Below, piece by piece: positions 15,811-56,661 of a stretch of DNA of 56,661 bases (the stretch's first letter is position 1; every line of letters begins with the position of its first letter). The stretch lies in NCBI GenBank assembly GCA_039679645.1, contig JBDKUO010000059.1:1-56661 (forward strand). Reading direction: 5' to 3'. The DNA comes from Armatimonadota bacterium (GTDB lineage: Bacteria; Armatimonadota; UBA5829). The translations under genes were made by a program, and so were the position numbers. Under the pieces are notes generated by a model. The model did no database searches, was not told the DNA's origin, and was given only the letters and a program-made list of their open reading frames with translations.

Positions 15811-15851
15811 AATATTATCCCTCCAGGTAGAATACCTGGAGGGATAATATT
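15811..15851. repeat. Perfect 19-bp hairpin with GAA loop
   Basis: Bases 15811-15829 are exactly complementary to 15833-15851, with only GAA between. The position after trxA fits a transcript end, but no T-run follows on either strand. The right arm contains GGAGGG, and an ATG begins at 15852, so the stem would hide a ribosome-binding site. Confidence 0.85.
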
Positions 15852-30610: not shown

Positions 30611-30637
30611 TCGGGCTGGATCAGATATCCAGCCCGA
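30611..30637. terminator. Hairpin between convergent genes
   Basis: TCGGGCTGGAT and ATCCAGCCCGA form a perfect 11-bp stem around CAGAT, between the HAAS-type gene and the end of clpB. It lacks a clear T-run, but the convergent position suggests a shared transcript end. Confidence 0.55.
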
Positions 30638-54955: not shown

Positions 54956-54987
54956 GGTCGGGGGTATTCTTGCCCCCCGACCTTTTT
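54956..54987 (+). terminator. Rho-independent terminator
   Basis: GGTCGGGGG and CCCCCGACC form a strong stem around TATTCTTGC, followed by TTTTTATT. It ends the propeller-like gene and lies seven bases from the stop of the convergent gene. Confidence 0.9.
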
Positions 54988-54993
54988 ATTACT

Positions 54994-56445
54994 TTATCTG
55001 GAATTATAAAAAACCAGAGGCACTAGCCCGATAGTCGGGCGGCCCGGGGCTATTATTTCAAGTATCCCACGCGTGGTCGCCTCCGTAACCGATTCGGCCG
55101 TAATCTCTACATCAATTTCCTGCTTGGGCGGCCAATGGGTAATATAGGTATGGCTCCTAAGTCCGGTGGATGCGCTCCAACCCTCCGGCAAATGCCAGAC
55201 AAGCTCCATATGACGCGAATCGGGCATTTGATTTATAAGAGTCACTTTCATCGGCAACGGCACGCCTGCCCTAATCTCCGGCACTCCGAGATAGTCCACG
55301 ATCACCTTTGTGTGCACGAAGTCATACTCCACCGCATACGGCGACTTTTCCCATATATCGCGGGCAACTTGACCCTCATCCAGCTTCAATTCACTGATGC
55401 ACGAGGTCTCAGATTGGCCGTCAACTATCTCTACCTTTCCTTTATAGGCGTGTATCGAATGCTCGACCTCTGCCATTACCTGTTTCGTCAACTCATCGAG
55501 TGTGCCGGGAAAGACACGGTCCGCGCATGAGCCCTTGTCAATAGCTATTGTGACGATCCGGTCGCCGATCGGTTCAGACCACTCCTTTGGAATAGCATTT
55601 CTGCCCATTATGATACCCAGGGTCGCGCCCAGGGTCGCGCCGGTGCAGTCCGTATCATCACCGCAGTTGACTGCCGTGCAGATCGACTTGCCGAAGTCCC
55701 CTTCGCCATACATCCAGCCGATGATCACGAAGGCCACATTGGCCGGAGCCTGGAACCATCCGAGATCGGCGCTGTCGTCTACTACCGCTTTCCGGGCTTC
55801 TTTCCAATCCAAGCCTTTTTTATATGAGTCGAGCACGATATTTATACTCTTTGCAACCCTGCAGTCTTTAGGAATCTTGGAAAGGCCGATCTTTATGAGC
55901 TCGTCCCTGTCACCGATTACAAAAGCGGCGCTCTGCACTGCCGCTGTAAAGAGAGCCGCGTATGTGCCCTCGCCGCCGCCATGGTCCACGCATGCATCCT
56001 CATATGCATGTCTTATCGCAATATCCGGGCAGCCCGGAGCAAGGCATGCCCATATCTCCGAGCGAATCCATGCGCCGTTTGAGTTTCTCCAAAGCTCGTT
56101 GTAGCACTCACCCGAAAGCGGCGGGATCAATCCTGCGCGCATATTGGACTTGCAGATGCCGTATTCGTTCCAGTGAGGAGGAATAAAATTGAGCCAGTAT
56201 TCGCCCAGGACCTTTGCGCTCACGTCAAGCGGCCTTCTGTCCTGGACGGCTCGCAGCCAGATGAGCTGGAGATCGAGATCGTCATTAGGAAGCGGCTCAC
56301 CAGAAGCATTTTTATAGCCATGAACATCCTGCATATCGGTGCAGCATTCATACGGCATACCAAGCGTGCCGCCTATGCTCTTGCCGAGCCAGCAGCCATA
56401 GATCTTATCACGCAGTTCGTCACGGTTGATCTTTACTGTCGACAT
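54994..56445 (-). CDS. ADP-ribosylglycohydrolase-like protein with C-terminal beta domain
   Basis: 483 residues. The ARH fold is indicated by KIYGCWLGKSIGGTLGM at the start, the first metal motif Asp55-Asp56-x-Asp58 (NDDLDLQ, where the classical family has TDDT) and the second, Asp263-Asp264-Thr265-Asp266 (CGDDTDCTGATLGATLGI). Such enzymes remove ADP-ribose from proteins or nucleotides; relatives act on other substrates. The last about 120 residues (from VDYLGVPEIRAG) form a beta-sandwich, as in NPCBM-associated domains. No signal peptide. ATG 56445 is the start; it faces away from the hairpin array. Confidence 0.85.
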   Translation of the reverse strand: MSTVKINRDELRDKIYGCWLGKSIGGTLGMPYECCTDMQDVHGYKNASGEPLPNDDLDLQLIWLRAVQDRRPLDVSAKVLGEYWLNFIPPHWNEYGICKSNMRAGLIPPLSGECYNELWRNSNGAWIRSEIWACLAPGCPDIAIRHAYEDACVDHGGGEGTYAALFTAAVQSAAFVIGDRDELIKIGLSKIPKDCRVAKSINIVLDSYKKGLDWKEARKAVVDDSADLGWFQAPANVAFVIIGWMYGEGDFGKSICTAVNCGDDTDCTGATLGATLGIIMGRNAIPKEWSEPIGDRIVTIAIDKGSCADRVFPGTLDELTKQVMAEVEHSIHAYKGKVEIVDGQSETSCISELKLDEGQVARDIWEKSPYAVEYDFVHTKVIVDYLGVPEIRAGVPLPMKVTLINQMPDSRHMELVWHLPEGWSASTGLRSHTYITHWPPKQEIDVEITAESVTEATTRGILEIIAPGRPTIGLVPLVFYNSR

Positions 56446-56510
56446 ATATAACCTCTCATTATTGCTTTGCCAGGGCTAACGCACGAGTTACAAAAACATG
56501 AACGCCTGAT

Positions 56511-56639
56511 AGGTGACGATCTCCGAATCGTCACCTTAATGCCGAATCGGGGTCTCCGAACCCCGTAACCTTTGCTGGAATAGCCGGATTCGGAGATCCG
56601 GCACTGGTTCTTGGGTAAGGATTCGGAGATCCTTACCCA
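56511..56639. repeat. Array of four hairpins with identical loop and different stems
   Basis: H1 56511-56536: AGGTGACGAT-CTCCGA-ATCGTCACCT. H2 56548-56565: CGGGGT-CTCCGA-ACCCCG. H3 56583-56602: GCCGGAT-TCGGAG-ATCCGGC. H4 56612-56639: TGGGTAAGGAT-TCGGAG-ATCCTTACCCA. TCGGAG is the reverse complement of CTCCGA, so on one strand or the other every loop is CTCCGA closed by T-A. Stems are 6 to 11 bp, all perfect and all different. No gene is seen from 56446 to the window end. Confidence 0.9.
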
Positions 56640-56661
56640 TCATACGAGTGATGTGTTTGAA

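Follow-up and report, generated by a model that had tools for sequence, protein, structure and literature searches.

Near the right end of the window (the whole stretch of Armatimonadota DNA that was analysed, 56,661 nt) stand four perfect hairpins which share the loop CTCCGA, two in each orientation. We consider it highly probable that this array is a non-autonomous REP element (REPIN/BIME), that is, the two ends of a REP-associated tyrosine transposase (RAYT) transposon joined without the gene, and that the RAYT reads the loop and not the sequence of the stem.

Structure of the array

Hairpin 1 (outer left, 56511–56536, plus strand) has a stem of 10 bp, AGGTGACGAT-CTCCGA-ATCGTCACCT, and hairpin 2 (inner left, 56548–56565, plus strand) one of 6 bp, CGGGGT-CTCCGA-ACCCCG. 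The two on the right are on the minus strand: hairpin 3 (inner right, 56583–56602; 7 bp) reads GCCGGAT-TCGGAG-ATCCGGC on the plus strand, and hairpin 4 (outer right, 56612–56639; 11 bp) reads TGGGTAAGGAT-TCGGAG-ATCCTTACCCA on the same strand. Of the 28 occurrences of the hexamer in the window, the four array sites alone have a stem of at least 6 bp; elsewhere the stem is 0–1 bp. When the window was simulated 200 times with a first-order Markov model no such hairpin appeared, and the observation of four perfect same-loop hairpins, two each way, which had been made in an earlier sequence-only reading of this DNA, is thus confirmed.

The closing T-A pair does not vary either, which extends the conserved core from 6 to 8 nt; on the plus strand this core is TCTCCGAA in hairpins 1 and 2 and TTCGGAGA in hairpins 3 and 4, with a core-to-core spacing of 33/36/33. 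The left and right halves of the array align without gaps as inverted 62-nt half-units, each composed, in order, of a TGAT foot, a 10-bp outer hairpin, a spacer and a 6–7 bp inner hairpin. The left half-unit occupies 56507–56568 (plus strand, 89.3 bits with a covariance model) and the right one 56581–56642 (minus strand, 85.6 bits). The statement that the stems differ completely has to be withdrawn for the outer two, AGGTGACGAT and GGGTAAGGAT, which are related to each other, as the gapless alignment of the halves also indicates.

Copies within the genome

The window's own genome (G000) comprises 3.41 Mb in 69 contigs. The last 182 bases of the window have 33 matches there, many of them 90–100% identical across the array, and a unit of approximately 140 bp recurs in full and partial copies at about 85–100% identity. 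Using the covariance model 54 half-units were recovered. The partial forms include a single outer-inner pair, and hairpins 3 and 4 fused at a common GGATTCGGAGATCC. Most copies are intergenic, 23 of the 25 checked being located between ORFs and the remaining two overlapping just a short ORF.

Among these same-species copies the stems are kept as sequence, and therefore the variation described in the sequence-only reading is that among the four hairpins of one unit. Its contention that the whole unit is not conserved fails here, given the recurrence of the 140-bp unit; the related claim that only loop and pairing are kept is likewise incorrect within the species but holds between species, where, as described below, the stems change as pairs.

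One might suppose that the hairpins act as RNA, by terminating transcription, stabilising mRNA or binding a protein. RNA recognition would likewise conserve the loop and the pairing, and REP effects on termination and mRNA stability have been reported (PMC6006769). The window copy, however, lies 5′ of its neighbour gene (54994–56445, minus strand) and is without a T-run; other copies are found between genes of divergent, convergent or tandem orientation, and an Rfam search returned no family match. Furthermore, because the half-units are oppositely oriented, no single strand shows the four loops in the same form. We regard a role as RNA as extremely unlikely. The terminator role in particular was rejected, there being no T-run at the window copy and a placement independent of gene orientation.

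Covariation of the stems between species

The covariance model detected 25, 22 and 22 half-units in three congeners and 18–54 in four other genera belonging to the same family and order. Half-units were absent from most of the other relatives scanned with this model, and the distribution is patchy. Across 64 half-units in an alignment fitted to the covariance model the loop YTCCGA hardly varies. Pairing in the outer helix reaches 98.9%, eight of its ten pairs show two-sided changes, and double-changed cells number 103; shuffles gave 23.8 and slid controls no more than 26. Because of this fitting an independent test was used, based upon a free-arm pattern in which the core and two G/C pairs are fixed and 6 nt on each arm are free. 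The arms were perfectly complementary in 97 of the 150 matches listed, against 0.04 expected under independence, and comprised 16 different arms; since the copies are related these are not 97 separate events. The scan for CTCCGA with complementary arms which the sequence-only reading had proposed thus came out in its favour. Another 15 of the 150 matches listed pair at five of the six arm bases, and stem intermediates with a G-T wobble or a single mismatch are present. Between genera, the stems change as pairs and the loop YTCCGA stays fixed.

Such a pattern might also arise if the stems were actively rewritten around a fixed core by template switching or foldback synthesis. In keeping with this, several adjacent pairs sometimes differ at once, as with GGGTGGCGAT beside GGGTGGCTGT in genome G018, and there are mixed-arm copies such as TGGCGA with TCCTGA on contig C38 of G003. 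Multi-pair differences may, on the other hand, represent separate REP subfamilies brought by different RAYTs, and the presence of single-pair steps with G-T wobbles, and of one-mismatch copies, means that point mutation followed by compensation suffices for many of the changes. Template switching around the core, as put forward in the sequence-only reading, is not needed because these intermediates fit stepwise compensation; it may have contributed to multi-pair jumps such as that from CGAT to CTGT, and as a general explanation we consider it unlikely.

Association with RAYT genes

In the congener G004 (contig C19) two opposed half-units are found directly on either side of a gene (139699–140235 of C19) specifying a protein of 179 aa, giving an arrangement of 2+2 hairpins. 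The product is a REP-associated tyrosine transposase (NCBIfam NF047646, 104 bits, cut-off 80) in which alignment reveals the HuH motif as HVH and the Y---NP motif as YIHDNP; the best solved relative of the RAYT profile is Escherichia coli TnpAREP [PDB 4er8, E = 5.9e-10]. G000 possesses a decayed RAYT (contig C68), in which some 29 N-terminal residues are followed by a stop and a C-terminal segment, VHNNPVRKGF; remnants of TTCCGAA hairpins flank it on either side. It also has two other RAYTs of the same clade, on contigs C60 and C66, with different hairpins at their ends. An intact RAYT with exactly this core was found only in G004, none being intact in G000, and the opposed half-unit pairs of G003, G017 and G018, which were checked for further exact-core REPtrons, contain no RAYT in any case.

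Wherever the flanks of a close RAYT are readable (L124, L162/L361, L360, L362, L363 and L371), both sides show an outer hairpin and an inner one, and each RAYT has cores and stems of its own. With the G004 RAYT lying between the same 2+2 hairpins, and these close RAYTs sharing the layout, the window array is most readily interpreted as the ends of a REPtron that lack the gene, that is, as a REPIN/BIME. The invariant loop, the compensatory stems and the RAYT gene lying between such hairpins also support the other possibility raised in the earlier reading, selection on loop plus structure through recognition by a protein.

As expected of a REP or REPIN, the hairpin is dispersed and mostly intergenic, it occurs in inverted pairs, and the same hairpins flank a RAYT (G004:C19). 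The GT[AG]G tetranucleotide located 5′ of the hairpin in canonical REPs is missing, the foot here being TGAT, which is conserved mainly in the genus, or variants of it. Since this tetranucleotide is also lacking in published atypical REPs, namely those of RAYT subclass 2.6 and class 3 (PMC6006769), we place the array among the non-canonical REPs.

Other hairpin families

The window contains a second REP family at 30611–30637 (CGGGCTGGATATCTGATCCAGCCCG), of the type flanking the G000 RAYT on C66 (L127). Its core, GATATCYGATC, is constant and its stems are compensated in G000, G003 and G004; the three free pairs are all complementary in 38 of 45 instances, with six different triplets. A third hairpin of 27 bases, GGTCGGGGG-TATTCTTGC-CCCCCGACC (54956–54982), resembles the flanks of the RAYT at G004:C3 (L135/L371), in which the loop ATTCTTG or ATTCCTG recurs on different stems. 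The 19-bp perfect hairpin at 15811–15851, AATATTATCCCTCCAGGTA-GAA, may be another dispersed repeat, since a similar TATCCCTCCAGGTAAGATACCTGGAGGGAT is found upstream of the C60 RAYT (L360). Two of the copies, L062 and L064, are both preceded by a further shared repeat, GGTACGACTGTCCGGMGGCTTCGGCAG.

The outer ISAs1-type MITE

The array in the window is carried by a MITE of the ISAs1 type (56471–56661, plus strand) which ends with the contig, and which was recognized through a TIR search, full copies with both TIRs and target site duplications (TSDs), and the array-less MITE L334. Its left TIR, CAGGGCTAACGCACGA, lies at 56471–56486. The left TSD, TTGCTTTGC, occupies 56462–56470, and on contig C50 these nine bases recur after the right TIR. 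The MITE measures approximately 225 bp, with 16-bp TIRs (CAGGGCTAACGCACGA / TCGTGCGTTCGCCCTG) starting CAGGGC and TSDs of 9–10 bp (aagctggact, ggtgatagag, gtcagttctg, ttgctttgc and ggtgattRgc); both features are present in the window copy and in four or more further copies. Members of the ISAs1 family generate TSDs of 8–10 bp. The element thus has the TIRs of the family, a TSD and no coding capacity. The assignment to the ISAs1 type was made because an ISAs1-family IS in G004 (PF13808 transposase) has a similar TIR, CAGGGCAATCGCATGA, identical to that of the MITE at 13 of 16 positions, and each of its ends has the 10-bp repeat AATGAGAGCA. No PF13808 (ISAs1 transposase) domain was found in G000.

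The contig ends are places where the assembly broke within two MITE copies of almost identical sequence (window 56471–56661; C50, C60 and C33). Matching target duplications indicate the joins C59–C50, which share TTGCTTTGC and in which the right part of the window's MITE is the start of C50, and C60–C33.

An 87-bp MITE in G004 (L334) has the same TIR and is without the array, representing an empty site for array insertion. Three further MITEs with this TIR (L335, L336 and L337, from G004 and G003) carry a different RAYT hairpin cargo with the core ATATCCGAT / ATATCTGAT. Two REP families are therefore nested within one MITE family. TIR-less copies of the array recur with the boundaries CCTGATAGG and CCCATCATA, which suggests that it has also moved alone, without the MITE. 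The MITE may account for a large part of the dissemination of the window form in G000.

In view of the window copy and the four or more others with TIRs and TSDs, the array could be taken as internal MITE sequence, its hairpins being incidental or serving as binding sites for a DDE transposase, with the RAYT uninvolved. This we think very improbable: many array copies without TIRs share internal boundaries, a MITE without the array exists, the same half-units flank a RAYT gene, and the repeat is present in other genera.

Proposed mechanism

We infer from the sequences that the RAYT binds the array, where it cleaves, and that the array is mobile. In this reading both ends of a RAYT transposon, each bearing two outward-facing hairpins, have been joined without the transposase gene. 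The hairpins would fold once the locus becomes single-stranded, as it may on the lagging-strand template, and a dimer of the RAYT, an HuH/Y1 enzyme, would bind them via the fixed apical YTCCGA loop and the intact stem. Recognition is very probably by the loop rather than by the sequence of the stem. The 5′ TGAT foot is probably also read, and the enzyme would cut and join single-stranded DNA nearby, the role of the foot and the site of cleavage being guesses. The stem would drift by compensatory changes, because its sequence presumably matters just as “paired,” and the loop could not. In addition, an ISAs1-type MITE has dispersed the window copy as its cargo.

The loop triplet across the RAYT clade

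In a sample of 80 RAYT loci from many phyla, hairpins within approximately 250 bp and oriented toward the gene were classed as near and those more than 500 bp distant as far. Of the near hairpins 28% have TCC in or at the loop, versus 7% of the far ones, a fourfold difference (p = 1.6e-9); its reverse complement GGA gave 6% and 5%, respectively. Several loci display one loop on different stems, including L183 and L239 with CTCCA in four of four hairpins. The loops TGC, TCT, TGT and TCA are also common at these 80 loci, and the TCC pattern is not universal. We advance tentatively, and would put its chances a little below even, the proposal that this clade uses across many phyla a loop code (a fixed apical TCC-like triplet, free paired stems and two hairpins per end) from which species may drift to private stem dialects, with double mobility through ISAs1 MITEs in this genus.

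Relationship to known systems

The array resembles REP/BIME/REPIN sequences and REPtrons (PMC2817692, PMC3116915, PMC6006769) in its short intergenic inverted hairpin pairs present in many copies, in the flanking of a RAYT gene at one place with dispersed copies without the gene elsewhere, and in its species-specific sequences. Unlike REP/BIME/REPIN, it has two hairpins per end, a fixed apical core of 6–8 nt, free stems and a TGAT foot. With RAYT subclass 2.6 and class 3 (PMC6006769) it shares REPs devoid of the GT[AG]G foot; those have been published only as atypical structures and are compared here by description. As in subclass 2.6, the nearest relatives of these RAYTs include many Bacteroidetes, and the Y---NP motif is that of class 2. 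That the RAYTs described here may belong to subclass 2.6 is offered as a lead.

TnpAREP enzymes bind and cut single-stranded REPs and, for those of group 3, published SELEX and mutant work showed that the correct loop bases and a perfect stem are required, base changes in the stem being tolerated (PMC8266576). The array probably works like these group-3 systems of S. maltophilia and Marinomonas, with loop bases that would be essential and a stem that would have to pair but could change its bases. Unlike the array, their REPs have a GTAG foot, loops of 3–4 nt and one hairpin each, the likeness being one of working. The outer element is like the IS and MITEs of the ISAs1 family in its TIR starting CAGGGC and its TSD of 9–10 bp, and unlike ISAs1-family MITEs in carrying a REPIN as cargo. 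In the article passages covered, neither REPs nested in MITEs nor REPs with a constant loop and free stems are described.

Here, in a RAYT group whose REPs are atypical and lack the GTAG foot, the part constrained by recognition (the loop) can be told by sequence alone from the stem, which is constrained only to pair, and the constraint on the loop is tied to a two-hairpin end architecture which recurs across phyla. The natural series of compensated stems provides material for testing how these transposases recognize single-stranded DNA. That one MITE family contains two different REPIN families points to a way in which REPs could hitchhike.
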